The notes beneath the pieces were generated by a model, which saw nothing but the letters and a program-made list of their open reading frames with translations, had not been told where the DNA came from and did not search any database. Of a stretch of DNA of 64,000 nucleotides, positions 43,236-63,537 are shown piece after piece. A program made the translations under genes and the position numbers. Location of the stretch: assembly GCA_026004795.1 (NCBI GenBank), contig BPJV01000004.1:124001-188000 (forward strand), written 5' to 3'. The DNA comes from Pirellulaceae bacterium. Its GTDB lineage: Bacteria; Planctomycetota; Planctomycetia; Pirellulales; Pirellulaceae. Numbering within the stretch: position 1 is the stretch's first letter; each line of letters opens with the position of its first letter.

Positions 43236-43260
43236 CGTTCGTTAACTTCCTTTTCGAACT

Positions 43261-43323
43261 TTTCTAAACAGGAGCAAACAGAGGGCGCAGAGGCTCCGTT
43301 TCCTCTGTTCTCATCTGTGCAAA
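43261..43323. repeat. palindromic ACAGAG repeat, copy a
   Basis: CTAAACAGGAGCAAACAGAG ... CTCTGTTCTCATCTGTGCAA between pump 1 and its adaptor. The two ends are imperfect inverted copies; the outer arms have decayed compared with other copies. Confidence 0.75.
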
Positions 43324-43326
43324 TCA

Positions 43327-44793
43327 TTAATGATTGTGTCCCGCGTGCGGGTCGACTCCTCCACCCGCCTTATTCTTCAGAGCCATCTGGAGTTGCTGGG
43401 CCGCTTTGATGGCGACGACATCGCCGGGTGACAAAGAGCCGTCGTTGGCGATCACGACCGAGAACCGGTCCTGGTATTCGACGTGGACGGCGATGCGGTC
43501 GAAATGATCGCCGTTCTGTTGGAACACGTAGTGCTCGATGCCGTCCTGGGCTACTGCCTCGATCGGTAAGACAATGCGATTTTCCCACCGTTGCACTGGA
43601 ACATGGACCTGCATCCGCTGGCCCGGCTTGTAGCGCCAGGTGACGAAGCGATGCCCCTCGGGAGAGCGATTCTCCAGAACAATCGCATTGGTCAGCGGAA
43701 TATAGAAGTACAGGGCACGCGAATCGGGATCGACGTCATTGTCGACATACGCGATTTTCAGTCCGTCGATCACCTCGGCATTGCTGTTGTTATCTTCGCG
43801 TGTGGCGATGATTTCCCAACCTTGTTGGGCGGCTCGGAGCAACTCATCTGCGTCCTGTTCGAATCCGCGACCTTGAAGGTATAGGTCGGCGTAGTCGGCC
43901 AACTGGCACAGTGGGGCTCCCGCGTCGACGTATTGACCTTGTTTGACCGTCAGGTCTCGAACGACGAAAGGATGGTCACCGAATTCGGGGTGGCTATGCT
44001 CAGGGTGCTCCGGCGTGACCACGGTAATGTCGCGCAGCAGGGTCCGCGTCTGCAAAATGCCGTCGACTTGCTCCTCGGTCAGGCCGTGAAGGAGCAAGCT
44101 TTGTCGCTGCGCATTGAACACCGCCATCAGCTTCTGCTGTTCGTACTGGCGTTCGAGCAACGTTTTCCCGGCGATGGCACCCGATGCTTGAATCGACTGC
44201 AGTCGCTCGATTTCCCGCGCCACGACTTCCAACTCACCAGCCGTTCTCAAGAAATTGCTTTGCGCATTGACCAGTTCTTCGTGGGTCAAGCGTAGGTCGA
44301 ACAGCAACTGCCCTGGCTCCACCGCTTCGCCTCCTACTGGGTAGACGCGTGTGATGCGGCCACCGAGTGGCGCGGTCACCTCGACCTCCGTTCGACCGGG
44401 TCGGCCGATGACAATCGCCGGCATCGTTACTCGCCGCACAAACGGCTGCAATTCGATGGCCGTCGTTTCAAGACCAATGTTCTTGCGCGCTTGGGGGCTG
44501 AGCTCCAATGAGTTCGCTTCGTCGTGTCCGGCATGCTCATGGTCGTGTCCGGCATGCTCATGGTCGTGCGCATGCCCCCCATGATCGTGCCCATGCTCAT
44601 GCCCATCATCGGCGACGGCGAGTTCGTGTGCTTCGGCTGCTACCTCGAGGCCCACAAGCCGTTTCAGTTCGGTAGGCCAGCGGTCTTGGAACCACCACGC
44701 GCCGATCCCGATGAGAGCCACCGCGACGAACAGGGCGATCGCCCGGAGCACTGCCGCGTGCTGCTGCAAATATCGAACCTGCAAACGAATCAT
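43327..44793 (-). CDS. RND efflux periplasmic adaptor (CusB/CzcB-like) with His-rich N-terminal segment
   Basis: 488 residues. An N-terminal TM anchor (AALFVAVALIGIGAWWF-like, residues 17-35) is followed at residues 64-91 by an HGHDH/HEHAGHD-rich segment with about a dozen His, then ELSPQARKNIGLETTAIEL, the barrel-sandwich (lipoyl) halves GRPGRTEVEVTAPLGGRITRVYPVGGEAVE and VKQGQYVDAGAPLCQLAD, a coiled-coil hairpin (NAQSNFLRTAGELEVVAREIERL) and a beta-barrel. The tail ends HAGHNH. The His cluster likely binds Zn2+, Co2+, Ni2+ or Cu2+ and feeds the pump. It is followed by pump 1 and preceded by a His-rich exported protein, all on the minus strand. Confidence 0.92.
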   Translation of the reverse strand: MIRLQVRYLQQHAAVLRAIALFVAVALIGIGAWWFQDRWPTELKRLVGLEVAAEAHELAVADDGHEHGHDHGGHAHDHEHAGHDHEHAGHDEANSLELSPQARKNIGLETTAIELQPFVRRVTMPAIVIGRPGRTEVEVTAPLGGRITRVYPVGGEAVEPGQLLFDLRLTHEELVNAQSNFLRTAGELEVVAREIERLQSIQASGAIAGKTLLERQYEQQKLMAVFNAQRQSLLLHGLTEEQVDGILQTRTLLRDITVVTPEHPEHSHPEFGDHPFVVRDLTVKQGQYVDAGAPLCQLADYADLYLQGRGFEQDADELLRAAQQGWEIIATREDNNSNAEVIDGLKIAYVDNDVDPDSRALYFYIPLTNAIVLENRSPEGHRFVTWRYKPGQRMQVHVPVQRWENRIVLPIEAVAQDGIEHYVFQQNGDHFDRIAVHVEYQDRFSVVIANDGSLSPGDVVAIKAAQQLQMALKNKAGGGVDPHAGHNH

Positions 44794-44996
44794 AACGATC
44801 TCCCGAAATTGTCATGGATCTTCTCCCCTTACCACCAAGGCAACGAGTTCAGATCCACGTTGTAGGGAAACAACCTGGACGCCGGGGGAGCAACCGAAGC
44901 ATTCAACGACGATTCGCCGCCGCTGGTGCTGGCATGCCGAGAGCGGGACCGGTGTCGCGGTGGCCGGCGACAGACGCTAGCAACGGCGCAGAACGA

Positions 44997-45422
44997 TCAA
45001 ATGAGCAGGATCGAGAGCGCGAGATGCAATCGTACCGGGGTGTCGGTGAGAATCGCCGATCGCATATCGGCGGAGTGACTAGAAGCGCTGCATCGAGCAG
45101 GCATACCGCAGGAATCCCACGATGCCATGGCCCACCCGGTGCTATCATCCGTGGGTGCGGCGAGGCGATCGGGGGCCATGAACACGCAGGGGGCCTCCGG
45201 GCAACGAACCGGCTCGGGCGCCGGCTGGGAGGGAACCTCCGATTGCCGCTGATGCGCTTCCCCCACCGCATGGTCATCAGCGCAGGAGTGCTCGTGCGTT
45301 ATGAGGTCCGCATCGTGAACAAATGCAGCATCCTGCGCATGGGCATGATGAAAGCAACATCCCAGCGCGGCATGGGCCAGCGAAAATGCTACCAGGTAGT
45401 AGGTAAGAATGCGTTCCGTCAT
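44997..45422 (-). CDS. small exported His/Cys-containing protein of the metal island
   Basis: The ATG at 45422 gives MTERILTYYLVAFSLAHAALGCCFHHAHAQ, a hydrophobic leader ending in a Cys-Cys-His-His segment; the 141-residue mature product is rich in His, Cys, Asp and Ala and ends LHLALSILLI. The opposite-strand partner at 45801 is similarly Cys/His-rich and ends VRTCTLLI, which suggests a loose relationship. Likely periplasmic metal binding or sensing; no known domain. It lies 203 bases upstream of the adaptor gene on the same strand and may be the first gene of the pump 1 transcript. Confidence 0.62.
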   Translation of the reverse strand: MTERILTYYLVAFSLAHAALGCCFHHAHAQDAAFVHDADLITHEHSCADDHAVGEAHQRQSEVPSQPAPEPVRCPEAPCVFMAPDRLAAPTDDSTGWAMASWDSCGMPARCSASSHSADMRSAILTDTPVRLHLALSILLI

Positions 45423-45730
45423 CCACGAAGCTCTGACTGGCAAAGTTTCTTGAGGCGTTTAGTGGAAGTATACGTCCAGGCATCGCCCAGCGTCGAACCG
45501 AACCCGTACCATCCGGGACCGCCTCAGCTACAGAGATCGGACAAAGTTGGGCTCTCCACCCATCTCGTTCTTGCATTCTACCCATTTCGGAGCGGATCCG
45601 CAAGCCGGATCGGTATGGAGATGGCTTGGCTGCTTTGGGTGCATTAGATGCCGCCCCGCCCGCCAGTACCCCCTGGGGGAACTAAGGCCGTACCAAGGCT
45701 CGGTGCCCGGATGACGACAATGTCTTTATC

Positions 45731-45759
45731 TTGACCGCGTCCCCGGAGAGGACTATGCT
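45731..45759 (+). promoter_or_regulatory. candidate promoter with internal dyad, upstream of the Cys-rich gene
   Basis: TTGACC (45731-45736) and TATGCT (45754-45759) are 17 bases apart, 42 bases before the ATG of the Cys-rich protein. The spacer contains GTCCCCGGAGAGGAC, an imperfect palindrome (GTCC...GGAC) placed between -35 and -10 as in metal-responsive MerR-type operators, though the spacing is 17 and no merR-like gene is present in the window. Assignment is by pattern only. Confidence 0.42.
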
Positions 45760-45800
45760 TTAAGAAGTCAGCGACAACATGCACGTGATGCTTGATTTTG

Positions 45801-46205
45801 ATGGTGCAGCGTACATTGCAATTCCTCACGACGAACTTGAATCTGTTCGTGCTACTCGCTTGCCCTTACTTTTGCATGGGCAATGTGGGGCAGTTCGGTT
45901 TGCCGCATGATGCACAGGAATGTTGTTGCTGCCATCGATCTAGCGATCAGCCCGACGTGCCGGCACCGCTGCAGCCAACGGACACCGAAACGGACTGTTT
46001 CTGCCACGGCGCAATCCCCAAGGGAGGGGTGCGACCTGCGGAGGTAAACGCGGATTCGGTGGGAAGCGAATGTTGGTTTGGTAATCTTGTACTTACCCCG
46101 GCTGGCCACTCTGTTACCAACCGTCTCTTCCAATCGCCCTCTGCCTTCCCGCCGTTCTCATCTGGGCGGGATGTATGCGTGCGCACGTGTACGCTTCTTA
46201 TCTGA
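45801..46205 (+). CDS. small exported Cys-rich protein of the metal island
   Basis: ATG 45801 (ATG GTG CAG CGT) gives a 134-residue protein starting MVQRTLQFLTTNLNLFVLLACPYFC, a probable leader. The rest contains ECCCCHRSSDQ, DTETDCFCHG, SECWFG and RDVCVRTCTLLI; ten or more Cys and several His make metal binding likely. An in-frame TTG at 45792 is the alternative start. It heads the plus-strand set adaptor 2, pump 2 and has a candidate promoter 42 bases upstream. No recognised family. Confidence 0.6.
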   Translation: MVQRTLQFLTTNLNLFVLLACPYFCMGNVGQFGLPHDAQECCCCHRSSDQPDVPAPLQPTDTETDCFCHGAIPKGGVRPAEVNADSVGSECWFGNLVLTPAGHSVTNRLFQSPSAFPPFSSGRDVCVRTCTLLI

Positions 46206-46314
46206 GCATTGTGGCACCGCATTCTTGCTGAGTGAGCAATTCGAGTAGCGCATGCTGCTCGGTCTTTGCTCGTGCTGTCTTTTCCTCCGCAGTCGCTGCC
46301 ATACAGACGTCGCC

Positions 46315-48030
46315 ATGAACACAGAGTTGCCCAATCACAATCCCCAACATCGCGTGTCCGACCGGCCCGAGTGTGGCGCAGCAGAGCCACAGACCGACAC
46401 GCACGACCGTGCATCGCCACCTTCCCCCACAACCGGCAAGCCGCAGTGCACCGATCCCGCCCAGCTTTCTGCTATCCATTCGTCTTCCCGGTCTTCCCAC
46501 GGCTTGAACGCCCGTCGATTCGCCAGCCAAACCTTGACGGTGATCATGCTGACCATCCTGGGCGGTATCGCTTTTTGGGGGCACCGCACAGGATGGAGAT
46601 TCCCTAAGTTTTCTGAACTTGTCGGTGACCTACCAACACCACCTGTCGCCTGGTGTGAGGAACACGGAGTGCCGGAGGCTGAATGTATCGCCTGCAACGC
46701 CGACCTGATGCCCAAGGGAAAGCTCTACGGCTGGTGCAAGGTGCACGGGGTTCATGAATGCGTGCTAGAGCATCCGGAGTTGGCACAACTGGATCGGCCC
46801 CCACTGATCTCGTTCGCCGACCTTCAGCGTGCGGCGAAAGCCCTGGAGGTGCGACCGCGGCCAGAGAATGACCCGGGATGCAAGATGCACTTGCGGCGGA
46901 TTCAATTTCCCTCGATCGAAGCCGCGGACAAGGCCGGTATCGACATCGCGCTGGTCGACCGGGGGCCGGTGACTGAAGCGATCAGAGCCAATGGCGAAGT
47001 CGTCTATGACCCCACGCGCGTCGCTCGGTTGGCGTCGCGTGCCGCTGGCACCGTCTGGTTGGTAGAGAAGAACGTCGGGGATCAGGTTCGCAAGGGAGAC
47101 CTGCTCGCGCTGGTCGATGCGACAGAGGTAGGCCAGGCGAAAACGGAACTTGCGCAGGCTGTCGTGCAGTATCGATTCGCCGTTGACACGTACGACCGCC
47201 TCGCTGGACTGGGGACAGTTGTCGCGGGGAAGCGTCTGGTGGAAGCAGAAACGGCCGTTGCCGAATCGGAAGCGCGGATCCAGCGATGCCTTCAAAAACT
47301 GGTGAATCTAGGTGTGCCGCTTACGCGCGAACAGTTGCAAGAATTCCCGACTGCTGAATTGAATCGCAGGCTGCAGTTCCTTGGCGTTCCCGCCTCGGTC
47401 TCTGCCCAGCTTGATCCTCTGCGCACGACGTCCAACCTGCTCCCGGTGGTTGCTCCGCGGGACGGCATCGTCGTCTACCGCGATGTTGTTGCGGGAGAAG
47501 TGGTCGACACGACGAGGACGCTGTTTACAGTGGCGGACACCAGCGCAATGTGGTTGCTACTGGATGTACCGTTGGAGCAGATGCAGTACGTCTCGAATGG
47601 TCAAGAAGTCGTCTTTCAGCCCGACGGCACCAATCAGACCTTCCGCGGACGCATTGACTGGCTTAGCACCGAAGTCGACCGCGAGACTCGGACGGTGCAG
47701 GTCCGCGCCGAACTGCCGAACGAAGATGGCCATTTGCGCAACGAAACGTTCGGAACCGGGAGAATCATCCTTCGGGAAGACGCTCAGGCCATTCTGGTTC
47801 CCCGCTCGGCCGTGCACTGGGAAGGGTGTTGCCATGTGGCGTTTGTTCGCGACAAGAACTGGTTCTCCAGTCCATATAAGATCTTTCACACCCGCAGTGT
47901 TCGACCAGGTGTCGTGATGGGCGACCACACCGAGATCATAGCAGGACTGTTGCCCGGTGAAGTCGTCGTTACAAAAGGCAGCGACGTCCTACGAGCCGAA
48001 CTGCTCAAAGGCAACCTTGGCCCCGGCTGA
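46315..48030 (+). CDS. RND efflux periplasmic adaptor with N-terminal paired WC-H-C motif (pump 2 adaptor)
   Basis: From ATG 46315 the product is 571 residues. A polar, Cys/His-containing N-terminus is followed by one TM helix (residues 72-89). Next comes AWCEEHGVPEAECIACNADL (Cys114, His117, Cys124, Cys127) and YGWCKVHGVHEC (Cys141, His144, Cys149), a paired metal-binding-like motif also found in the lipoprotein at 53987. The adaptor proper has GPVTEAIRANGEVVYDPTRV, SRAAGTVWLVEKNVGDQVRKGDLLALVD, a helical hairpin and VVAPRDGIVVYRDVVAGEVV. This is the CusB/CzcB architecture with an added cytosol-exported metal domain. Pump 2 follows after the palindromic repeats and a relic gene. Confidence 0.9.
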   Translation: MNTELPNHNPQHRVSDRPECGAAEPQTDTHDRASPPSPTTGKPQCTDPAQLSAIHSSSRSSHGLNARRFASQTLTVIMLTILGGIAFWGHRTGWRFPKFSELVGDLPTPPVAWCEEHGVPEAECIACNADLMPKGKLYGWCKVHGVHECVLEHPELAQLDRPPLISFADLQRAAKALEVRPRPENDPGCKMHLRRIQFPSIEAADKAGIDIALVDRGPVTEAIRANGEVVYDPTRVARLASRAAGTVWLVEKNVGDQVRKGDLLALVDATEVGQAKTELAQAVVQYRFAVDTYDRLAGLGTVVAGKRLVEAETAVAESEARIQRCLQKLVNLGVPLTREQLQEFPTAELNRRLQFLGVPASVSAQLDPLRTTSNLLPVVAPRDGIVVYRDVVAGEVVDTTRTLFTVADTSAMWLLLDVPLEQMQYVSNGQEVVFQPDGTNQTFRGRIDWLSTEVDRETRTVQVRAELPNEDGHLRNETFGTGRIILREDAQAILVPRSAVHWEGCCHVAFVRDKNWFSSPYKIFHTRSVRPGVVMGDHTEIIAGLLPGEVVVTKGSDVLRAELLKGNLGPG

Positions 48031-48088
48031 CTGTGCGAACAATAGCCAGCCGGGCGCTGGCAAAGCCAAACCTTGATGAGAAAAAAAG

Positions 48089-48150
48089 ACTTGAACAGGA
48101 GGAAACGAAGGACGCAGAGCTCCGTTCTCTCCGGTGCCTCCTGTTCAAAA
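48089..48150. repeat. palindromic ACAGAG repeat, copy b
   Basis: TTGAACAGGAGGAAACGAAGG ... GGTGCCTCCTGTTCAA; outer 12 bases are a perfect inverted repeat. It lies 40 bases before the relic GxxExxY gene. Confidence 0.85.
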
Positions 48151-48190
48151 CACAGATCCCTAAAAACCAAGACATACCAGAGACGCCTCG

Positions 48191-48370
48191 ATGCATCCTC
48201 AATTTCAAGCCGCTTCCAGGATGACTCGTGCATCCCATCCACAAAGCACAGTTGCTGATCTACATGAAACTGCTGGATGTGCACTCGGCTTGTTGATCAA
48301 CTTTCACGTAATGAAGTTGACCGACGGAGTGTCGGGATTGATTTTGTCCAGCGCGAAGGAACCGGATTAA
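48191..48370 (+). pseudogene. internally deleted GxxExxY-family gene
   Basis: Base by base comparison with the intact gene at 53471 shows the same start context (GAGACGCC-CGATGCA), the first 12 codons, then a jump from GACTCG straight to TGCATCCCATCC: 227 bases are missing, with the two bases CG shared at the junction. A second one-base deletion (GTGCACTC for GTGCCACTC) restores the frame, so 59 codons remain open, ending LLINFHVMKLTDGVSGLIL then TAA. The nuclease-like core is gone. It is bracketed by repeat copies b and c exactly as the intact gene is bracketed by f and g. Confidence 0.88.
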
Positions 48371-48383
48371 CTGCAGGAAGGAA

Positions 48384-48447
48384 TTTGAACAGGAGAAAAC
48401 AAAGGAAACAGAGCCTCCGTTCTCTCTGTTGCCTTCTGTTCAAAAAT
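48384..48447. repeat. palindromic ACAGAG repeat, copy c
   Basis: TTTGAACAGGAGAAAACAAAGG ... CTCTGTTGCCTTCTGTTCAAAA, shown here as its two arms. It lies 13 bases after the relic gene and 12 bases before the start of pump 2, so it may carry or affect the pump's ribosome binding region. Confidence 0.85.
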
Positions 48448-48459
48448 CACAGGTGGACC

Positions 48460-51400
48460 ATGCTGAACAAAATCATCGAATTTTCGTTACGCAATCGAGC
48501 GATGGTGCTCGTCCTGGTCGCTGTGGTGATCGTGGCGGGGGCGTGGTCGTTGCAGTACATCGACATCGATGCATTCCCTGACACGACACCGGTGATGGTC
48601 CAGGTCAACACGACCGCGCCGTCACTCTCCCCGGAAGAGGTCGAACGGCAGATCACGTTCCCGATCGAACAGGCGATCAGCGGCCTGCCGGGACTGGAAA
48701 AACTGCGGTCGATCTCGAAATTCGGCCTGTCACAGGTCGTCATCACCTTCGAAGACGGCACCGATATCTACTTCGCACGGCAGTTGATCAACGAACGCCT
48801 GGGGACCGTCGAACTACCGGCCGGCATCGAGCGGCCGAAGATGGGGCCCGTCTCCACCGGTCTGGGCGAAGTTTTTCATTACATCGTGCGGCTAAAAGAC
48901 GTCGACATCGCCTCGCTGCCCAGGGAAATGCGGATCCAAAAACTGACGGAACTGCGAACCATCCACGACTGGGTCGTCAAGCCGCAGTTGCGAACCGTCG
49001 GCGGCACGGCCGAAGTGAACAGTTGGGGTGGGTACGAAAAACAGTACCAGGTTCGCATCGATCCCAACCGACTGATCAAACACGACTTGACGTTAGATGA
49101 TGTGGTGCGAGCTCTCCAGGAAAACAACCGCAACGTCGGCGGCGGCAACATCACGCAAAACAGCCAGATGTTGCTGGTGCATGGGGTCGGCCGCACGGTC
49201 AACATCCCACAGATCGAAAACATCGTGATCAAGGCCAAGGATGGTGTGCCGGTTCGAGTGCGCGATGTGGCCGACGTGCAGATCGGTCATGAAATTCGAC
49301 GTGGAGCGGTCACGGCCGATGGTCGCGGTGAAGTCGTCTACGGCCTGGGCTTCATGCTGATGGGCGAGAACAGCCATGAAGTGACTAGCCAGTTGAAGAA
49401 AAAGCTGGAGGAAATCAAGGACACGCTCCCCCCCGGCGTAGAGGTCGTCCCCGTCTACGACCGCACCGAACTGGTCGACTACGTCATCGAAACGGTGCAG
49501 AAAAATCTGTTCGAAGGGGGACTGCTGGTGATCGCCGTGCTGTTCTTCTTTCTCGGCAATCTGCGAGCAGGATTGATCGTCGCATTGGCCATCCCGCTCT
49601 CGATGCTGTTCGCGTTTTCCGGCATGCTGCGCTTCGGCATCGCGGCCAGCCTGCTCAGCCTGGGCGCGATCGACTTCGGACTGGTCGTCGACAGCTCGGT
49701 CGTGATGGTCGAGAACTGCGTGCGGAAGTTGTCGCACGGCATTCCGCGCGGGATGACGAAGATCGACGTCGTCCGCGATGCCGCCATCGAGGTGCGAAAG
49801 CCGACGATGTTCGGCGAGCTGATCATCATGATCGTGTATCTGCCGATCCTGACGCTGCAAGGCGTCGAAGGGAAACTCTTCCGGCCGATGGCGCTGACCG
49901 TGATTTTTGCTCTGGCCGGTTCGATGATTCTGTCGATGACGCTGATGCCGGTGTTGGCCAGTTACGTCCTGCCCAACCGAATGGAGGAACGCGAGCCTCT
50001 TTTGATCCGCTGGATCAAGCGACTTTACCAGCCCGTTTTGCACTTCACGATGCACAACAAGGTGGTCGTGATCGGCGGCGCGCTCTGCCTGTTGATCGTC
50101 TCCTTCGGGATGATCGCGCCGAACCTGGGCAGCGAGTTCGTACCCAAACTGTCCGAAGGCGCCATCGCCATCAACGTCGTACGACTGGCCGGAACCGATC
50201 TCGAAGAATCGATCCGTTACAACACCCAGATGGAACGGGTCGTCCTGCGCGAGTTCCCGGACGAAGTCGAACATGTCTGGAGCCGCATCGGCAGTGCGGA
50301 AGTGGCCACCGATCCGATGGGCATCGAACTGACCGACATGTTCATCACGCTCAAACCGCGCAGCCAGTGGAAACGGGCGAGTACACAGGATGAATTGACC
50401 CGGCTGATCCACAAAACGCTGCGCGAAATGCCTGGCCAGCGGATCGCGATGACGCAGCCGATCGAAATGCGGCTCAACGAAATGATCTCCGGCGTGCGCA
50501 GCGACGTCGCGGTGAAACTGTTCGGCGATGATTTCGACGTGCTGGTCGACAAGGCCGACGAAATCCAGCAAGTGCTGCGGTCGATCGACGGGAGCGCCGA
50601 CGTCGCGGTCGAGCAGGTTACCGGCCAACCGGTGCTGCAAATCAAGATCAAGCAGGACGAAATCGCCCGCTATGGTGTCTCGGCGAAGCAGGTGCTGGAC
50701 CTGGTCGAATCGCTGGGCACTTATCCCGTCGGCGAAGTCTTCGAAGGTCAACTGCGTTTCCCGCTGATCGTCCGCTTGCCCGAGCACATCCGCGCCAGCA
50801 AGGAAGCGATCGGGGAAGTCGAACTCAGGACGCCATCCGGCCAGCGAATCCCGCTCGCACGTTTGGCGGAGATCAAACTGACCGAAGGCCCCTCGACGAT
50901 CACCCGCGAATGGGGTTACCGGCGGATCAACATTTCGTCCAACATTCGCGGCCGCGACATGGGGAGTTTCGTTGCCGAGGCCCAGCGGAGAATCGAAGAA
51001 GAAGTCCAGCTTCCTCCCGGCCGCTATCACCTGGAGTGGGGTGGGCAGTTTGAGAACCTGATCAGCGCCCGCCGCCGGTTGATGATCGTCGTGCCGATCG
51101 CGCTGACGTTGATATTCCTGTTGTTGTACATGACTTACAACAACGTCGTCGATGCCATCCGCGTCTTCACCGGTGTCCCGTTCGCCTGGACCGGAGGGAT
51201 CATTGCCCTGTGGCTGCGCGACATGCCGTTTTCGATTTCGGCCGCCATCGGGTTTGTCGTCCTGTCCGGCGTGGCCGTGTTGGACGACATGTTGCTGGTA
51301 TCGTACATTCGGCAGCTTCGCGCCCGCGGGATGGACCTGGAGTCGGCGGTCGAGAACGCGGCGATGACGCGACTGCGGCCCGTATTGATGACGGCCCTTG

Positions 51401-51663
51401 TGGCGGCGTTGGGATTCGTTCCAATGGCGTTCAACACCGGCATGGGGGCGGAAGTGCAGCGGCCGCTGGCCACCGTCGTCATCGGCGGCGTGATCAGCGC
51501 CATGGTCACGTCGCTGCTGGTCCTGCGCGTGCTCTACACGGTTTTTGCAGGAGGCGTTGAGAGGCGAGAGAACAGAGGGGAGAGTGGAGAGTCCAGAGTC
51601 GAGAATGGAGAATTGGTGATCAAAAGTCGAGAGGCCGAAGCCGTCGGAGCTGAAAGCAAGTGA
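48460..51663 (+). CDS. heavy-metal efflux RND pump, CusA/CzcA family (pump 2)
   Basis: ATG 48460 (CAGGTGGACC upstream) starts MLNKIIEFSLRNRAMVLVLV; 1067 residues. HME-type markers: YIDIDAFPDTTPVMVQVNT, LEKLRSISKFGLSQVVI, TM4 GAIDFGLVVDSSVVMVEN, GSEFVPKLSEGAIAINVVR, NEMISGVRSDVAVKLFGDDF and LLVSYIRQLRARGMD. It exports divalent or monovalent metal ions by proton antiport with the upstream adaptor. The last 35 or so residues (VERRENRGESGESRVENGE...) are encoded by GAGAGTC repeats and are absent from typical relatives. The 3' end, including the stop, is repeated twice more downstream (see 51606). Confidence 0.95.
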   Translation: MLNKIIEFSLRNRAMVLVLVAVVIVAGAWSLQYIDIDAFPDTTPVMVQVNTTAPSLSPEEVERQITFPIEQAISGLPGLEKLRSISKFGLSQVVITFEDGTDIYFARQLINERLGTVELPAGIERPKMGPVSTGLGEVFHYIVRLKDVDIASLPREMRIQKLTELRTIHDWVVKPQLRTVGGTAEVNSWGGYEKQYQVRIDPNRLIKHDLTLDDVVRALQENNRNVGGGNITQNSQMLLVHGVGRTVNIPQIENIVIKAKDGVPVRVRDVADVQIGHEIRRGAVTADGRGEVVYGLGFMLMGENSHEVTSQLKKKLEEIKDTLPPGVEVVPVYDRTELVDYVIETVQKNLFEGGLLVIAVLFFFLGNLRAGLIVALAIPLSMLFAFSGMLRFGIAASLLSLGAIDFGLVVDSSVVMVENCVRKLSHGIPRGMTKIDVVRDAAIEVRKPTMFGELIIMIVYLPILTLQGVEGKLFRPMALTVIFALAGSMILSMTLMPVLASYVLPNRMEEREPLLIRWIKRLYQPVLHFTMHNKVVVIGGALCLLIVSFGMIAPNLGSEFVPKLSEGAIAINVVRLAGTDLEESIRYNTQMERVVLREFPDEVEHVWSRIGSAEVATDPMGIELTDMFITLKPRSQWKRASTQDELTRLIHKTLREMPGQRIAMTQPIEMRLNEMISGVRSDVAVKLFGDDFDVLVDKADEIQQVLRSIDGSADVAVEQVTGQPVLQIKIKQDEIARYGVSAKQVLDLVESLGTYPVGEVFEGQLRFPLIVRLPEHIRASKEAIGEVELRTPSGQRIPLARLAEIKLTEGPSTITREWGYRRINISSNIRGRDMGSFVAEAQRRIEEEVQLPPGRYHLEWGGQFENLISARRRLMIVVPIALTLIFLLLYMTYNNVVDAIRVFTGVPFAWTGGIIALWLRDMPFSISAAIGFVVLSGVAVLDDMLLVSYIRQLRARGMDLESAVENAAMTRLRPVLMTALVAALGFVPMAFNTGMGAEVQRPLATVVIGGVISAMVTSLLVLRVLYTVFAGGVERRENRGESGESRVENGELVIKSREAEAVGAESK

Positions 51664-51687
51664 CCGGCACCCAGTATGTCAAGGATA

Positions 51688-51785
51688 TTTTGAACAGAAG
51701 AAAACAGAGGACACGGAGGACGTTCTTAAACAGCGGGAAACAACGACTGCACAGGCTCCGTTCTCTCTGTTCCCTCCTGTTCAAT
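51688..51785. repeat. palindromic ACAGAG repeat, copy d
   Basis: TTTGAACAGAAGAAAACAG ... CTCTGTTCCCTCCTGTTCAA, the long version with an extra internal AAACAGCGGGAAACA block. Located after the pump 2 stop codon. Confidence 0.85.
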
Positions 51786-51889
51786 CTGTTTTTCGAGAGG
51801 TGAAAGTGGAGAGCTGGTGATCAAAAGCCGGGAGGACGAAATCGTCGGGGCTGAAAGCGAGTGACCGGCACCCAGTTTGTCAAAGATAT

Positions 51890-51986
51890 TTTGAACAGAA
51901 GAAAACAGAGGACACGGAGGACTTTTTAAACAGAGGGAAACAGTGACAGCACAAACTCCGTTCTCTTCGTTCCTTCCTGTTCAATC
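51890..51986. repeat. palindromic ACAGAG repeat, copy e, target of the IS4 insertion
   Basis: Same long form as copy d. Its last eight bases GTTCAATC are the left target duplication of the insertion sequence, so the element entered at the tip of one palindrome arm. Confidence 0.85.
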
Positions 51987-53224
51987 CTGAGCCATCCCCA
52001 GTTTTCCGGGCGAGGTGTGCGTGGGCGCATAAAAATTGGCGGTGTCACGCAGCGCGTTATTGGGTATGAAGTTGGGTATCAACAGTCCTGATTCCAACCC
52101 AAGAACACGGAGGGAACCGCCATGGATCGTATGGAAGCCTTTAGCTGGGTCCTTACTGTATGTGCCGGTTTGCGTCTGAGTCAAGCGAAAACGCTCGGCG
52201 ATTTGGTGGCCGGTGCTCTGGACGTCGGCAGGGTCAGCCTTGCCGAACTGGGCCGCCGCTTGACAGGGACTACCGCCAAGCATAGGATCAAGCGTGCGTG
52301 GCGGTTTACCAATAACCATCGTGTGCAGGTAAGTTCGGCCATGCAGGGAGTGATTCGGCAGTTGGTCCGCCCCAAGCGAAAGAAGCCATTGGTGGTAAGC
52401 ATCGACTGGGTCCAGGTGCGACAGTTTCGTACGATCGCTCTGTGCGCGGCCATCGATGGGCGAGCCATTCCGCTGCTGTGGGCCAGTTATCCGGAGGAGG
52501 AATTTCACCAGCGTCAACACCAACTGGAGGAAGCCATCTTGCGGCAATTCCGGACCATGCTTCCTGATGGAGTGCGGGTAATCTTGCTGGCCGATCGAGG
52601 CTTCGGACGCACCGAGATGGCCCGTCTGTGCCAAGAACTTCGGTTTCAGTACGTCATCCGTATCGTGCCCGATGTGTGGGTGCAAGCGACTGATTACGAA
52701 GGCAATCTCCGGGACTTCCCAGTGAAAAAAGGGATCTGTCGATGCCTACGGAATGTGGCCTACCGCAAGCGAAATCCGGTTGATCACCACATTGTCATCC
52801 GCTGGAAAAAGGGACTGGCCAAGAAGCGTGACGAATGCTGGTTCTTGATGACCAATCTCCAAGGAAATGCGGTACGGATCTCAGAGTTGTTTGCCAAGCG
52901 GATGACGATCGAAGAGATGTTTCGTGACTACAAGAGCCGTCGGAATGGATTCGCTCTGCGAAACACCCAGATTCGCCGCGCCGATCGTTTTGATCGTTTG
53001 TTGCTGATTCTGGTATTGGCCTACATTCTCCTGTTGGGAATTGGCCTGCGTGCACGGCAGTTGTACTGTCCGCAAAACTGGTGCTCGAACACGCGTCAGT
53101 CTGAATGCAGTGTGTTTACGATCGGAAAGCGGATGCGCCACCATGTCGACCTGACCATCCAACAGATTATCAACGCCCTCATCCGCGCCACTCAAAACGC
53201 CGCGCCAAACTGGGGATGATTCAG
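51987..53224 (+). mobile_element. IS4-family insertion sequence, complete, 1238 bp
   Basis: Ends are inverted repeats: left CTGAGCCATCCCCAGTTT, right (reverse complement) CTGAATCATCCCCAGTTT, 16 of 18 matching. Both sides carry the direct duplication GTTCAATC (51979-51986 and 53225-53232). The empty site survives in copy A, where CCTGTTCAATCTGTTTTTCGAG runs on uninterrupted, proving the insertion point. One transposase gene fills it. An 8-base duplication fits the IS4 family. Confidence 0.96.
52122..53219 (+). CDS. IS4-family transposase
   Basis: 365-residue DDE transposase, uninterrupted. Catalytic residues: Asp95 in VVSIDWVQVRQFRTIAL, Asp158 in VILLADRGFGRTEM, and Glu264 in the signature R-x3-E-x6-K (Arg260, Glu264, Lys271; KRMTIEEMFRDYKSRRNG), the Y-x2-R-x3-E-x6-K motif of IS4 with Phe257 in place of Tyr. 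A hydrophobic helix near residue 300 (LLLILVLAYILLLGIGL) is usual for the family. Given intact ends and motif the element is probably still active. Confidence 0.95.
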   Translation: MDRMEAFSWVLTVCAGLRLSQAKTLGDLVAGALDVGRVSLAELGRRLTGTTAKHRIKRAWRFTNNHRVQVSSAMQGVIRQLVRPKRKKPLVVSIDWVQVRQFRTIALCAAIDGRAIPLLWASYPEEEFHQRQHQLEEAILRQFRTMLPDGVRVILLADRGFGRTEMARLCQELRFQYVIRIVPDVWVQATDYEGNLRDFPVKKGICRCLRNVAYRKRNPVDHHIVIRWKKGLAKKRDECWFLMTNLQGNAVRISELFAKRMTIEEMFRDYKSRRNGFALRNTQIRRADRFDRLLLILVLAYILLLGIGLRARQLYCPQNWCSNTRQSECSVFTIGKRMRHHVDLTIQQIINALIRATQNAAPNWG

Positions 53225-53334
53225 GTTCAATCTGTTTTTCGAGAGGTGAAAGTGGAGAGCTGATGATCAAAAACCGGGAGGACGAAATCGTCGGGGCTGA
53301 AAGCAAGTGACCGGTACCCAGTTTGTCAAGGATA

Positions 53335-53433
53335 TTTTGAACAGAAGAAAACAGAGGACACGGAGGACGTTTTTAAACAGCGGGAAACAGTGACAGCACA
53401 AACTCCGTTCTCTTCGTTCCCTCCTGTTCAAAA
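53335..53433. repeat. palindromic ACAGAG repeat, copy f
   Basis: Long form (TTTTGAACAGAAGAAAACAG ... CCTCCTGTTCAAAA), 37 bases upstream of the intact GxxExxY gene start. Confidence 0.85.
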
Positions 53434-53470
53434 AAATTCCATAAGACCAAGACATACGAGAGACGCCACG

Positions 53471-53878
53471 ATGCACCCTAAATTCATGACCGCTTCCCAG
53501 TTGACTCGAGAGATTATCGGTGCGGCGATCGAGGTCCATAAAGACAAAGGACCAGGGCTATTGGAATCGATCTACGAATGGTGCTTGACCAAAGAGCTGG
53601 AACTGCGCGGTCATAAAGTCCGCAACCAAAAAAAGGTAGTCGTCAGCTACAAGGACTTCGAGCGGGAAGATCCACTCCAATTCGACTTGCTCGTCAACGA
53701 CAGCGTACTGGTTGAAGTAAAAGCAGTGGAAGCCGTGCATCCCATCCACAAAGCACAGTTGCTGAGTTACATGAAATTGTTGGGTGTGCCACTCGGCTTG
53801 TTGATCAACTTTCACGTAATGAAGTTGACCGACGGAGTGTCGCGATTGATTCTGCCCGGCGCGAACAAACCGGATTAA
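53471..53878 (+). CDS. GxxExxY-family protein (putative PD-(D/E)xK nuclease fold)
   Basis: ATG 53471, 135 residues. The name-giving motif is GLLESIYEWCL (Gly-x2-Glu-x2-Tyr). The likely nuclease core is LQFDLLVNDSVLVEVKAVEAV (Asp ... Glu-x-Lys), followed by HKAQLLSYMKLLGVPLGLLINF. Proteins of this family (TIGR04256, PDDEXK_3-like) occur in multiple copies in planctomycetes and related bacteria; their function is not established. It sits between two palindromic repeats, and a deletion relic with the same surroundings lies at 48191. The start codon could extend upstream to 53390 in frame, but the region before 53471 is repeat sequence. Confidence 0.93.
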   Translation: MHPKFMTASQLTREIIGAAIEVHKDKGPGLLESIYEWCLTKELELRGHKVRNQKKVVVSYKDFEREDPLQFDLLVNDSVLVEVKAVEAVHPIHKAQLLSYMKLLGVPLGLLINFHVMKLTDGVSRLILPGANKPD

Positions 53879-53891
53879 CTGATAGGAAGGT

Positions 53892-53951
53892 TTTGAACAA
53901 GAGAAAACAGAGGAAACAGAGCCTCTGGTCTCTCTGTTGCCTCCTGTTCAA
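53892..53951. repeat. palindromic ACAGAG repeat, copy g
   Basis: TTTTGAACAAGAGAAAACAGAG ... CTCTCTGTTGCCTCCTGTTCAA (arms only), 13 bases after the stop of the GxxExxY gene, mirroring copy c after the relic. Confidence 0.85.
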
Positions 53952-53986
53952 CGTTTTTTCGTAACCCGTTTTTTCACAGGAGTGAA

Positions 53987-54373
53987 ATGATGACGAGAGT
54001 AATGGAAATGAGCCGGATGGGATTGTTGAGCGCCTTGGTTGCCGTCGCCGTGATGGTGGTCGGTTGCAACCAGTCCTCCGAAAACGGTTCCGCCAGCGAC
54101 ACCTCAAACGTAACCGCCGTCGACCACGGGCACTCCGATGCCGACGGTCACGACCACGGCAGTTGGTGGTGCGTCGAACACGGCATCCCGGAAGAAGAGT
54201 GCAGCATGTGCAGTTCGAAGGCCGCGGCGAAATTCAAGGAGCAGGGTGATTGGTGTGAAGAGCACAATCGGGCCGAATCGCAATGCTTTATCTGCGATCC
54301 TTCACGAGCCGAGAAGTTCGCCAAACTTTATGAAGCCAAGTTCGGCCATAAGCCGCCAGCGCCAAAGGAGTGA
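53987..54373 (+). CDS. lipoprotein with paired WC-H-C-C metal-binding-like motif
   Basis: ATG 53987 (or 53990) after CACAGGAGTGAA, a good Shine-Dalgarno. Lipobox VMVVGC, Cys27. A His-rich linker (DHGHSDADGHDHGS) leads to two copies of a motif: WCVEHGIPEEECSMC (Cys62, His65, Cys72, Cys75) and WCEEHNRAESQCFIC (Cys90, His93, Cys100, Cys103), each W-C-x2-H-x6-C-x2-C. The same pattern occurs in adaptor 2. Likely periplasmic, membrane-anchored Zn2+ or Cu+ binding protein between the pump and the P-type ATPase. Ends with FGHKPPAPKE. Confidence 0.8.
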   Translation: MMTRVMEMSRMGLLSALVAVAVMVVGCNQSSENGSASDTSNVTAVDHGHSDADGHDHGSWWCVEHGIPEEECSMCSSKAAAKFKEQGDWCEEHNRAESQCFICDPSRAEKFAKLYEAKFGHKPPAPKE

Positions 54374-54432
54374 TCGACCGATTCTTGTCAGATCGATCGG
54401 AACTCACAGACTTGGGGTTGATTGGCGGGGCG

Positions 54433-54508
54433 ATTGAACAGAAGACAACTGAGAAAACAAAGGGTAGCGACAACTCTTCTCTGTGCTCTCTGCGCCCTCC
54501 TGTTCAAA
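54433..54508. repeat. palindromic ACAGAG repeat, copy h
   Basis: TTGAACAGAAGACAACTGAG ... CTCTGCGCCCTCCTGTTCAA in the gap between lipoprotein and P-type ATPase. Arms imperfect. Confidence 0.75.
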
Positions 54509-54610
54509 TTGCCCGGCCAACGGCACCTCGATCAACACCAACTAGCTGACCGACAATGCGCCTCGTCCAGCCACACTGCTACAAGCCAACCCGCTTGACT
54601 GGCGGGACGA

Positions 54611-54686
54611 TGAAATGAAAGACAACGGAGAAAACAGAGGCGAACAAAACCACCACTCCGTTCCCTCTGTGTCCTCCTGTTCAAAA
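54611..54686. repeat. palindromic ACAGAG repeat, copy i (decayed left arm)
   Basis: TGAAATGAAAGACAACGGAG ... CCCTCTGTGTCCTCCTGTTCAAAA. The left arm no longer matches TTGAACAGG. A GAGAGTC-type word (CTCAACTCTCAACTCTCAAC) follows just before the ATPase start. Confidence 0.65.
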
Positions 54687-54765
54687 CACATCCAGACAAG
54701 TCTGTCCACAGCCACTCGCTTATGGCCCCTCAGCCCCGGCTCTCAACTCTCAACTCTCAACCGCC

Positions 54766-56955
54766 ATGCAAAAGCAGACACTCACCTTTCACATCCAGGG
54801 CATGGACTGCGCCGAGGAGACGAACGCGCTTCGGCGTGCGTTGCTGCCGCTGGTCGGCGACGAGTCACGATTGGCCTTCGATCTGCTCAATGCCGAATTG
54901 ACAGTCGATTTCACAGGGCTGGAGATCAAACCGGACGACATTATCAGCGCCATCAAGCGGACGGGGATGCGAGCCGAGTTGCGACCGGAAGGGGATGCGG
55001 CCTGCGCCGATGGCGTGTGCGCCGTTCCCACGACCAATCGCGGCGTGCAACGCCTGACCGTGCTGACCGTCATCAGCGGCGTCGGCGGCGCTCTCGGCTT
55101 CATCCTACACGCGGTTCTGGCCGGCGGAGTCGGCGCCGCGCTCGGGTCTGAGGGAATGGGTGTTGCCGAAAGTGCGCCCTGGCCCGCGATGTTGGCCTAC
55201 CTCATCGGGATCGCTGCGGGTCTATGGGTCGTCGGGCCAAAGGCGTGGTATGCAGCGAAGAGTCTGCGTCCCGACATGAACTTGCTGATGTTCATCGCGG
55301 TCGCCGGAGCCGTAGCGATCGGGGAGTGGTTCGAAGCGGCCACGGTCGCTTTCCTGTTCTCAGTGTCCTTGCTGCTCGAGTCCTGGAGCGTGTCGCGTGC
55401 GCGACGAGCGATTTCGGCGCTGATGGATCTCGCTCCGCCGACAGCACGGCTTTTGACCGATGACGGCCAGGAACGAGAGATTCCCGCGCAACAAGTGCAG
55501 GTCGGCCAGCAAGTCGTCGTCCGCCCGGGTGAACGCATTCCGGTCGACGGCCAGGTCGTCCGGGGTGCGAGCGACGTGAACCAGGCGCCGATCACTGGCG
55601 AAAGCGTGCCGGTCTCAAAATCCCCCGGCTCGACTGTGTTTGCCGGAACGATCAACGGCGAAGGCGCGCTGGTCGTCGAGTGCACCAAACCGGCGGGCGA
55701 CACGACGCTGGCCCGGATCATTCGCCTGGTGGGCGACGCCCAGGCGAGAAAGGCCCCGTCGGAGAAATGGGTCGAGCGGTTTGCTCGCTATTACACGCCT
55801 GCCGTTATGTTGTTGGCCATTCTCGTACTGGTCGTCCCGCCGGTCCTTTTTCACGCGAGCTGGTTCGACTGGATCTATCGTTCGCTGGTGTTGCTGGTGA
55901 TTGCCTGCCCGTGCGCGCTAGTCATCTCGACGCCCGTCAGCGTTGTGGCTGCGTTGGCGGCCGCCGCACGTCGCGGCGTGCTAGTGAAAGGGGGAGAGTT
56001 CATCGAAGCACCGGCGCACCTGCGGGCAATCGCGTTCGACAAAACGGGAACGCTCACCGTGGGGCAACCGCGCGTCGTCGCAGTGATCCCGCTGGACGGA
56101 CACAGCGAAGAGGAACTGTTGGCCCGGGCCGCAGGTCTGGAATCGCACAGCAACCATCCGCTGGCTCAAGCCATCCTCCGCGCAGCCGAGGAACGCGGCA
56201 TCTCGCCGTTGGACGCGACCGATTTCTCGATCCTTCCGGGCAAGGGTGCCCGCGGCCGGATCGACGGCCGCGAGTTCTGGCTCGGCTCGCACCGCTACCT
56301 GGAAGAGCGCGGCCAGGAGACGCCGGAGATTCACCAGCGGTTGGAAGAATTGCAAACAGCCGGGCGAACCGTGGTCGTCGTGGGCAACGAGCGTCACGTG
56401 TGCGGCCTGATCGCGCTGGCCGACCGTCCGCGCGATGAGGCACACGAGACGCTGCGACAATTGCGGGAGTTGGGAATCGAACACCTGGTGATGCTCACTG
56501 GCGACAACCGGGGCACGGCCGAGGCGATCGCGCGCGAACTGGAAATCGACACCGTGAAAGCCGAATTGCTGCCGGAAGAGAAAGTCCGTGCGGTCGAGGA
56601 ATCCGTGCAGCGATACGGCCCGACGGCGATGGTCGGGGACGGGATCAACGACGCGCCGGCGCTGGCCGTCGCCACCCTGGGGATCGCGATGGGCGTTGCC
56701 GGCAGCGACGCCGCGATCGAGACGGCGGATGTCGCGCTGATGTCCGACGAATTGGAGAAGCTACCTTGGTTGGTCCAGCACTCGCGCCGCACGCTTCGCG
56801 TCATTCGCCAGAACATCACCTTTGCGTTGGGCGTCAAGGCCTTGTTCGTCGTCTTGACCTTCGTCGGCTTTGCATCGCTTTGGGCCGCCATCGCCGCCGA
56901 CATGGGCGCCTCGCTGCTGGTCATCTCCAACGGCCTGCGCCTGCTCCGCCAATAG
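54766..56955 (+). CDS. heavy-metal P-type ATPase, P1B-2 (Zn/Cd/Pb) type
   Basis: 729 residues. N-terminal HMA-like domain with GMDCAEETNALRRAL (single Cys15, not CxxC). P-type landmarks: TGESVPVSKSPGS, IACPCALVISTPV (Cys381-Pro-Cys383), FDKTGTLTVGQP (phosphorylated Asp425), SHSNHPLAQAIL, TGDNRGTAEAIA and MVGDGINDAPALA. The end has NITFALGVKALF (Asn-x7-Lys) and ADMGASLLVISN (Asp-x-Gly), the P1B-2 signature. Exports Zn2+, Cd2+ or Pb2+ to the periplasm where the RND pumps can take over. The ATG is preceded by GAGAGTC-type repeat and lacks a clear Shine-Dalgarno. Confidence 0.95.
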   Translation: MQKQTLTFHIQGMDCAEETNALRRALLPLVGDESRLAFDLLNAELTVDFTGLEIKPDDIISAIKRTGMRAELRPEGDAACADGVCAVPTTNRGVQRLTVLTVISGVGGALGFILHAVLAGGVGAALGSEGMGVAESAPWPAMLAYLIGIAAGLWVVGPKAWYAAKSLRPDMNLLMFIAVAGAVAIGEWFEAATVAFLFSVSLLLESWSVSRARRAISALMDLAPPTARLLTDDGQEREIPAQQVQVGQQVVVRPGERIPVDGQVVRGASDVNQAPITGESVPVSKSPGSTVFAGTINGEGALVVECTKPAGDTTLARIIRLVGDAQARKAPSEKWVERFARYYTPAVMLLAILVLVVPPVLFHASWFDWIYRSLVLLVIACPCALVISTPVSVVAALAAAARRGVLVKGGEFIEAPAHLRAIAFDKTGTLTVGQPRVVAVIPLDGHSEEELLARAAGLESHSNHPLAQAILRAAEERGISPLDATDFSILPGKGARGRIDGREFWLGSHRYLEERGQETPEIHQRLEELQTAGRTVVVVGNERHVCGLIALADRPRDEAHETLRQLRELGIEHLVMLTGDNRGTAEAIARELEIDTVKAELLPEEKVRAVEESVQRYGPTAMVGDGINDAPALAVATLGIAMGVAGSDAAIETADVALMSDELEKLPWLVQHSRRTLRVIRQNITFALGVKALFVVLTFVGFASLWAAIAADMGASLLVISNGLRLLRQ

Positions 56956-57084
56956 CGGTGATGTAATCGTGGGAGGGAGAGCTGCCATCCGTTGCGGCTT
57001 CCCAGGACGCGGGCATAGGAAGGGCCGCTGACAGTCGAGAGTCAAGAGAGAAGAGCCCAGGGCCAGAATGGAGCATGAAGTGTC

Positions 57085-57143
57085 TTGAACAGGAGCAAAC
57101 GGAGGAAACAGAGCCTCGGCTCCACATGTTGCCTTCTGTTTAA
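57085..57143. repeat. palindromic ACAGAG repeat, copy j
   Basis: CTTGAACAGGAGCAAACGGAGG ... CATGTTGCCTTCTGTTTAA (arms only), 130 bases after the ATPase stop. It is the last copy seen; none was found outside 43.2-57.2 kb. Confidence 0.8.
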
Positions 57144-57175
57144 TTCGACTGTTTGGTTTCTCTTGACGTAAGCTA

Positions 57176-58006
57176 ATGTTCTTTTGGATAACAACTTCCG
57201 TGATTTGTGGCAAGATCGTGTTTCATGGTAGCAGCAAACGCGATGCGGCGATGCGCATGTCACGCAAGGGAAACGATCTGGTGCGCAAGCATCTTCGGAT
57301 GGCTGCCTTCTCGGCCCTTAAATGCAACCCACAGGTCAAAGACTTGTACGCACGACTGCGAGCGCGAGGGCGGAGGGGAGACGTCGCGCTGGGCCACTGC
57401 ATGCGAAAGCTATTGCACCAAGTATTCGGTATCTGGACGACAGGCCGGGAATATGACCCAGATTACGCCGGAAAGCAAAACGCCGCCAGGCAGACTTCGG
57501 GACAGTTGCCAGACGGTCGCAAAGAAAAGGCCGCGGGCCGCAAAACGGGGGCATCGCCGGAAGGTAAATCGGTCACCACGACCAACTCTACCGTAGAGAA
57601 TTCAGCGTCGATCGTCAAAGAATCTGTGCAGACGCAATCACCAACGGACGACAATTCCCGTCCCGGTTCGATTGACTTTCCATATCTCCGCAGTCAAATC
57701 ACACTGGAACGTGTGCTCGGCCACCTGGGCTACTTCGATCGCCTACGTGGCTGTGGTCCCCAGCGACGCGGTCCATGTCCCGTCCACGGGTCCAAGCGGT
57801 CACGTGGGCGAACGTTCTCCGTACATCTGGGCAAGAACGTATATCAGTGCTTCCACCCGCCCTGCGGCATATCAGGCAACGTTCTCGACCTGTGGTGCCA
57901 GGTCCACAACTTGACTGTCTATGAAGGAGCGATCCACCTGGCCAACACGTTGGGCTTGGAACTCCACCCCGATCAGAGAATAGGAACACGTAATCGGAAC
58001 CCGTAA
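57176..58006 (+). pseudogene. 5'-truncated IS110-type transposase fused to a CHC2 zinc-finger domain
   Basis: The first 100 residues match the C-terminal (transposase_20) part of IS110-family transposases: SSKRDAAMRMSRKGNDLVRKHLRMAA, then DLYARLRARGRRGDVALGHCMRKLL. A charged Ser/Thr-rich linker follows, then residues about 175-270 form a DnaG-type CHC2 zinc finger: CPVHG ... TFSVHLGKNVYQCFHPPCG, followed by GNVLDLWCQVH and AIHLANTLGL. The N-terminal DEDD catalytic domain (about 250-300 residues) is absent, and the sequence upstream is a palindromic repeat, so this is a fragment. The fusion itself is known in planctomycete genomes as annotated IS110 plus CHC2 proteins, as far as I recall. ATG 57176 is only the first in-frame Met, not a real start. 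Confidence 0.78.
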
Positions 58007-63417: not shown

Positions 63418-63520
63418 GTAATTTGGGAAGGGACTTCTGGCGAAGTCGATTCCGGATTTTGGGGAAGGGACTTCTGGCGAAGTCTAAAGCGCGATGGCAA
63501 TGGACTTCTGGCGAAGGCCA
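63418..63520. repeat. three copies of a 16-base palindrome
   Basis: GACTTCTGGCGAAGTC at 63432-63447 and 63469-63484, and a one-base variant ending GAAGGC at 63503-63518. Each can form a six-base stem with a TGGC loop. They fill the gap between the two amidohydrolase paralogues. Confidence 0.9.
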
Positions 63521-63537
63521 CTACGGGGAGTGTTGAT

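Follow-up and report, generated by a model that had tools for sequence, protein, structure and literature searches.

Private inverted repeats around GxxExxY genes: a probable small mobile gene cassette of a kind apparently not described before

Free-standing (intronless) homing endonucleases are small nuclease genes that sit in junctions between conserved genes and are gained or replaced between relatives. Inverted repeats accompany other small genes: passages of a study of REPIN/RAYT systems (PMC3116915) describe palindromes beside a small enzyme gene, distinct enzyme copies within a genome, co-evolution of enzyme and palindrome, and tandem palindrome clusters that include flanking DNA, and intervening sequences of rRNA are reported to hold S23-type genes and to be cut out by RNase III (PMC4990558). 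Here we describe a unit made of a GxxExxY gene between two palindromes, which occurs twice in a 64,000-nucleotide (nt) stretch of a Pirellulaceae genome (contig BPJV01000004.1, here C4:124001-188000 of 5.59 Mb; hereafter the window). GxxExxY genes are found in 74 of 149 sampled genomes of the phylum Planctomycetota and in many other phyla. Between them, the names GxxExxY, TIGR04256, PF13366 and PDDEXK 3 appear in three openly licensed PMC papers, PMC8934634 among these; in that literature, preprints being outside the scope, we found no paper that gives GxxExxY a function and, by title and start of abstract, none on an association with palindromes.

Two GxxExxY units in a heavy-metal efflux region

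The window gene matches GxxExxY models well above their cut-offs (TIGR04256, 135 bits against 35; PF13366 PDDEXK_3, 131 bits against 22). The window holds two gene-bearing units, an intact one at 53335-53951 and a decayed one at 48089-48443, 5.3 kb apart:

53335-53431: composite palindrome f, the intact unit's left end, with a second left arm nested within
53471-53878, plus strand: GxxExxY gene, intact, 135 aa, predicted PD-(D/E)XK-like fold
53891-53951: palindrome g, right end of the intact unit
48089-48149: palindrome b, left end of the relic unit
48156-48372, plus strand: decayed GxxExxY copy with spacers at the adaptor/RND junction, with an internal deletion and a one-base gap
48383-48443: palindrome c, right end of the relic unit

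A first, sequence-only reading of the window had placed the intact gene between palindromes f and g, had seen matching spacers in the relic, and had proposed that gene and palindromes moved or were copied together. Coordinates and repeat comparison confirm the first of these claims. The relic aligns with the intact copy in three blocks of 78%, 91% and 89% identity (repeats D9, D12 and D6), and lacks the part matching approximately 53509-53733 as well as one further base. Both spacers are alike but not the same: the 5′ spacer has one mismatch in 21 bases, and the 3′ spacer reads CTGATAGGAAGG in the intact unit and CTGCAGGAAGG in the relic. The left palindromes are unlike, a simple 61-mer in the relic and a 97-nt composite in the intact unit, where it forms the third of three near-tandem copies of RND gene tail plus palindrome (D1; 51592-51784, 51793-51985 and 53239-53431). 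Homology between the units ends at the palindrome edges, with flank-to-flank scores of 8.6 and 9.0, that is, at background level. The same reading had named a plain segmental duplication of the pump region as the alternative, and the presence of two similar units 5.3 kb apart with tandem palindrome-containing repeats between them (D1) is what such an event could leave; however, the homology reaches no further than the palindromes in either direction and the architecture recurs in many genomes, so that this explanation is ruled out for practical purposes.

The GxxExxY protein is predicted to have a PD-(D/E)XK-like nuclease fold. Eleven positions (G27, P28, E32, Y35, Y60, D72, E82, K84, G109, N113 and F114) are invariant in 55 sequences. 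The modelled structure (mean predicted local distance difference test, 94.9; predicted template modelling score, 0.87) has a PD-(D/E)XK-like order of elements, and the D...ExK residues of that core are found as D72, E82 and K84 in 55 of 55 sequences. By its substitution rates the gene is under purifying selection, with a ratio of nonsynonymous to synonymous rates of about 0.09 in both clades of the junction copies described below (one of seven clade-A rows has a truncated frame, G174, and one an internal deletion, G046; two of eight clade-B rows have no qualifying open reading frame (ORF)). Plasmid or phage cargo was considered and rejected: with one query protein each, 8 of 72,556 plasmid records matched at E 1e-8, and none of 50,697 phage records did so at E 1e-5.

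Inverted arms and their words

The association of GxxExxY genes with inverted repeats is general. For every gene match, we compared the preceding 260 nt with the following 260 nt and scored the inverted repeat, with shifted windows as controls; a cross-locus null was dropped as too conservative, the arms of different loci being alike. The Planctomycetota set comprised the window's own genome and one match from each of 30 genomes (1 of 36 dropped for short flanks), and the all-phyla set 80 loci, of which 75 were measurable (5 dropped for short flanks); loci were the best matches of each search, so that canonical members are over-represented. A repeat scoring at least 18 was found at 30 of 35 Planctomycetota loci versus 0 of 201 shifted windows, and at 45 of 75 all-phyla loci versus 1 of 546; at a score of at least 14, the counts were 34/35 versus 4/201 and 59/75 versus 12/546. 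Around HicA genes of the same 149 genomes, none of 30 loci had an inverted repeat even at 14 or more. These counts answer the concern, raised with the sequence-only reading, that GxxExxY genes elsewhere would show no such flanks. One locus (L264) scores low because a transposase-like ORF (type judged by eye) separates the left arm from the gene. At the level of genomes, GxxExxY is present in 46 of 53 that contain a degenerate arm pattern versus 28 of 96 that do not (odds ratio 16, uncorrected for kinship).

The window's own genome contains six GxxExxY matches including the window gene. Three others lie between complete palindromes of another word (AAACACAGAGGCACAGAG...), one has ATTCGTG/CACGAAT arms, and for a broken copy (L006) one arm can be read by eye at each side, with a score of 17.2. 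Allowing at most one mismatch, the window arm pattern has 15 matches in the genome, all at C4:172,091-181,104, in the window region (reversed control, 0), while for the second arm pattern 22 of 23 matches are within 2 kb of the three AAACACAGAGGCACAGAG-word genes and 1 is on contig C11. The position of both tested arm types near GxxExxY genes, with this one exception, suggests a local spread of palindromes. The window palindromes do form a repeated family, as the sequence-only reading had it, but one local to the window region rather than genome-wide.

In an arm, a word such as CACAGAG recurs about three times; the arm reads approximately (A)ACC-CRYNRAG-n-CRYNRAG-n-CRYNRAG, with words including CACGGAG, CGCAAAG, CATTAAG, CATGAAG and CACAGAT. 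The words preferentially point inward, a word pair being on the gene's sense strand in 64 of 94 upstream arms and on the other strand in 10, and periodicity exceeds the shuffled 95% level in 46 of 94 arms, 40 of them with a period of 8 or 9. An inward word pair is present on both sides at 27 of 36 Planctomycetota and 37 of 80 all-phyla loci, versus 1 of 30 loci of a four-helix family described below, 0 of 30 HicA loci and 0 of 269 shifted windows; 16 of the 80 all-phyla loci have no such pair in either flank, and some of these carry other words.

Words differ between elements within one genome. Among 20 of the 36 GxxExxY matches of three genomes, the left arm best matches its own right arm, rather than the other right arms of the same genome, in 19, and arm scores reach 15 in 18 of 20 own pairs versus 5 of 114 cross pairs; within these genomes no two of the compared proteins exceed 60% identity. 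No common palindrome consensus exists, each element having its own word. We likewise rejected a single host-wide palindrome, given that words differ between elements of one genome and that the window arm type is nowhere else in it with the pattern used. Arm words instead follow protein lineage across phyla. Over 94 loci with an arm score of at least 16 (out of 118, which comprise only 8 of the 12 lower-ranked loci), protein identity predicts arm similarity with a rho of 0.419 (permutation maximum 0.213), and cross-phylum pairs, shuffled inside phyla with phylum labels taken from record titles, give 0.419 as well (maximum 0.291, p 0.001). The window arm type, for instance, is common to its protein neighbours L052-L055, from Opitutaceae, Verrucomicrobiaceae, Bythopirellula and Planctomicrobium records.

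The arms could alternatively pair in the operon transcript, forming a hairpin around the gene that is processed or regulatory, like rRNA intervening sequences with their S23-type genes and RNase III excision (PMC4990558). This would fit the GxxExxY genes at the cusB|cusA junction (see below), which are co-directional with the operon. In the same 94 loci, however, sense-strand arm mismatches show no G.U bias (192 G.U versus 178 A.C, p 0.50), so that an RNA stem finds no support there, and no known RNA family was matched in Rfam up to E 0.1 in 43000-57500. Because the mismatches lack a G.U bias, they argue for DNA rather than RNA as the probable recognised form of the arms, and we regard the transcript-hairpin explanation as very unlikely.

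A second gene family has similar arms. Genes for four-helix-bundle proteins (TIGR02436) occur in 73 of the 149 genomes, and 22 of 30 have inverted iterated arms scoring at least 18, versus 0 of 176 shifted windows; their words are other than those of GxxExxY, and among the 22 arms that are more periodic than shuffled sequence, 15 have period 7. Small GIY-YIG genes were considered as a third arm-bearing family, but the signal is weak (5 of 28 at 16 or more versus 0 of 100; 2 of 30 loci were too short) and we do not claim them.

Swapped and empty sites, and palindromes without a gene

Among relatives, fixed sites may carry the cassette, lack it or hold another occupant in its place. A DNA search with one GxxExxY locus of genome G113 over 33 genomes of its family gave 27 readable cusB|cusA junctions, occupied by a clade-A GxxExxY element in 10, a clade-B element in 14, a four-helix gene in 1 and an unclassified relic in 1, and empty in 1. 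The two clades differ in their arms (CGCAGAG-type in A, CACAGAT in B), and their proteins are 38% identical over 109 residues; several occupants are decayed, and two, G158 (arms only) and G163 (an arm remnant), are labelled B by arms alone. In G156, the empty junction, the tetranucleotide ATGA holds both the stop codon of cusB and the start codon of cusA. Empty sites in relatives, for which the sequence-only reading had proposed a search, therefore exist at this junction as well as at a solo palindrome of G139 that G109 lacks; another candidate, L159, turned out to be a decayed GxxExxY copy. On the cusA tree, label B needs 12 changes, 10 of them forced by well-supported branches (shuffled mean 9.2), and on the cusB tree 11, of which 7 are forced (shuffled mean 8.9); these numbers lie above those of nearly all shuffles. 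The first 650 nt of cusA are 95% identical between G152 (A) and G153 (B). The window relic is at the same kind of junction, adaptor/RND, in a genome of another class of the phylum.

Repeated occupation and replacement at one junction between conserved genes, together with the predicted nuclease fold, would also be expected of a free-standing homing-endonuclease-like gene that cuts junction alleles lacking it and spreads by gene conversion through the flanking genes, with arms that only insulate the gene or mark its cut site. Some elements are indeed far more alike than their flanks, as in G113 and G151, whose same-type elements are 94.6% identical and flanks 82.9%. Such a gene leaves unexplained both the private, matched arms and the widely dispersed gene-less palindromes (215 arm matches in G041, for example), and we consider it unlikely.

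Several further features of these junctions were observed. Occupant type is overdispersed on the flank trees (L265-L290 and L293), sisters differing more than in nearly all shuffles. In G155 (L280, minus strand, ORF 3061-3390), a GIY-YIG-like gene, identified by eye, interrupts a clade-B GxxExxY element and is flanked by GTCATTCCCGC palindromes and outer inverted ends. Decayed clade-B copies in G175 (L275) and G065 (L276) contain, by eye, a palindromic repeat of the type TCCCCTCTTGGGAGGGG...GGGTGGGT.

Palindromes also occur without a gene. In the window, ten related palindromes (a-j, approximately 60-97 nt) are spread over 43252-57143; each is either no more than about 130 nt from the start or end of a gene or part of a near-tandem copy. 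Besides the unit ends b, c, f and g, this part of the window comprises the solo palindromes and the heavy-metal efflux genes:

43252-43322: solo palindrome a, next to where the minus-strand adaptor gene 43327-44793 stops
43327-44793, minus strand: RND adaptor gene, with a weak family score
46252-48030: RND adaptor gene
from 48460, where its start was placed: CusA/CzcA-type RND gene
51688-51784: solo palindrome d, 25 nt past the RND gene stop, in copy 1 of 3 of RND tail plus palindrome
51889-51984: solo palindrome e, in the second copy of the repeated unit, with an IS4-family element at its right edge
54433-54508: solo palindrome h, after the small gene 53987-54373
54610-54685: solo palindrome i, before the P-type ATPase gene
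54766-56955: heavy-metal P-type ATPase gene
57083-57143: solo palindrome j, after the P-type ATPase gene

As single imperfect hairpins these are modest: 7 hairpins score at least 10 in 47001-58000, 5 of them from the palindrome family, and 20 shuffles of that segment give 0-5 such hairpins, with a best score of 14 that equals the best observed. As a repeat family they are far beyond chance, as the 15 arm-pattern matches against 0 for the reversed control show. The IS4-family element that adjoins palindrome e (51986-53225, transposase 52122-53219) has, by eye, similar inverted ends and a direct repeat, TTCAAT, on both sides of it (51980-51985 and 53226-53231). Repeated gene-end pieces similar to the RND tail copies lie, by eye, next to palindromes at L002, L003 and L005. 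Elsewhere in the window, tandem GAGTCCAGAGTCGAGGGT-type repeats at 42271-42393 (D5) include an inverted repeat of another type than a-j, with a score of 18, the window's highest in that scan, and three close direct repeats containing GGACTTCTGGCGAAG are found at 63424-63526 (D11).

In other genomes, arm matches range from 0 to 215 per genome, the maximum being in G041 (108 forward, 107 reverse). At 9 of 30 sampled arm loci an inverted partner (score at least 14) starts within 160 nt downstream, and in 20 stretches of G001, G139 and G041 the arms are alike. For an 11-kb stretch of G139 with two solo palindromes, G109 (92% identical) lacks one and has unrelated sequence in place of the other.

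A candidate mechanism and its relation to known systems

We hypothesize, as the account that probably holds, that the unit is a mobile cassette akin to REPIN/RAYT, with a PD-(D/E)XK protein that recognises the cassette's private ends. Such a cassette would consist of an inward arm, the GxxExxY gene and an inverted arm, each arm repeating a 7-base word about three times, once every 8-9 bp, near one helical turn. The protein would bind the iterated word on both arms and cut or process them as duplex, cruciform or hairpin, and this processing would move or copy the cassette and, in trans or locally, gene-less palindromes. In the window, a cassette may have entered the heavy-metal efflux region and then duplicated, one copy decaying, after which palindromes would have spread to gene boundaries within about 14 kb. 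The sequence-only reading had already suggested a mobile element; its palindromes are borne out as unit ends and the association as a general one, but that GxxExxY acts on them is something we infer, in contrast with the presence and absence shown between relatives.

Several observations weigh against this mechanism. By sequence, the protein has 0 PDB relatives up to E 1, and Foldseek gives only weak fold matches, none with E ≤ 0.001, the best being the Cas4 protein SSO0001, tRNA-splicing endonucleases, lambda-type exonucleases and a Holliday junction resolvase. Among the 75 all-phyla loci, 30 score below 18, 16 below 14 and 12 below 12, lower-ranked loci reach 18 in 7 of 12 cases, and when HicA windows are widened by 300 nt to one side to take in the partner gene, 4 of 59 score at least 14 and 2 of 59 at least 18. 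The sequence-only reading suggested that solo palindromes would be non-autonomous derivatives, which is borne out in part: one (L166) appears by eye to retain a GxxExxY gene's 3′ end, but dispersed solos in G001, G139 and G041 have loops that are, by eye, unlike in sequence and often in length. No clear target duplication is seen relative to the empty G156 allele or the G109 sites, where flanks are A-rich or diverged, and elements do not on average resemble each other more closely than their flanks do, the element exceeding the flank in 13 of 28 and 11 of 28 pairs. The mechanism does not account for the unlike loops, the lack of visible target duplications or the frequency with which nearest relatives carry different occupants.

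Two more of these adverse points bear on the idea that another enzyme moves arms and palindromes, with GxxExxY as a passenger or domesticated beneficiary. A GxxExxY match is missing in 7 of the 53 arm-bearing genomes, and most G139 solos carry CACGGAG, a word different from the CGCCAAG arms of its sole GxxExxY gene. The four-helix genes, for which we know of no nuclease fold, show the same architecture. On the other hand, words track GxxExxY lineage across phyla and are private to each copy in a genome, and the words in the arms of four-helix genes are different, 1 of 30 loci having the GxxExxY motif in both flanks; a passenger role therefore seems quite unlikely to us.

More tentatively, and with somewhat less than even expectation, we propose a general class of word-addressed mini-elements, found in bacteria and in some archaeal assemblies, to which GxxExxY cassettes would belong as one branch and in which a small protein (GxxExxY, four-helix S23-like, perhaps small GIY-YIG nucleases) lies inside inverted arms whose short word recurs about once per helical turn. 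Every protein lineage would have a word of its own, and elements would compete for the same operon junctions, so that word and protein would diversify as a recognition pair and mobilise the cassette together with its gene-less palindromes. If the mechanism holds, private iterated palindromes would explain the GxxExxY family and give an origin for widespread palindromic repeats, and the family would supply a natural set of nuclease-word pairs in which to follow the diversification of DNA recognition; the four-helix parallel points to a wider, unrecognised class of mini-elements reshaping operon junctions.

Compared with described systems, the cassette shares with the 23S rRNA intervening sequence (S23 ORF) a small gene between inverted repeats, and the four-helix family is armed likewise, but in the examined cases it is located between protein genes, with no sign of RNA-level selection. 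Like a homing endonuclease, it has a small nuclease-like gene in conserved-gene junctions, gained and replaced between relatives, but its private arms of inverted, iterated words and the dispersed palindromes without a gene set it apart. Inverted ends around a gene and gene-less derivatives recall DDE transposons and their miniature inverted-repeat transposable elements; however, the unit contains no DDE transposase (the IS4-family transposase at 52122-53219 is a separate insertion outside it), shows no clear target duplication, and has both ends private to each copy. The REPIN/RAYT system, as described in PMC3116915, resembles the cassette in its palindromes (extragenic there, as they may be here), its single small enzyme gene with palindromes beside it, its multiple, mutually distinct enzyme copies, its co-evolution of enzyme and palindrome and its tandem clusters. 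In contrast, the window gene matches only GxxExxY/PDDEXK_3 and not a tyrosine (Y1/HUH) transposase, the GxxExxY arms are longer and built of an iterated word, solo loops are not conserved, and many genomes carry many gene-bearing units. By analogy, REPIN/RAYT would be the nearest functional counterpart of the GxxExxY cassette, built around an unrelated enzyme.

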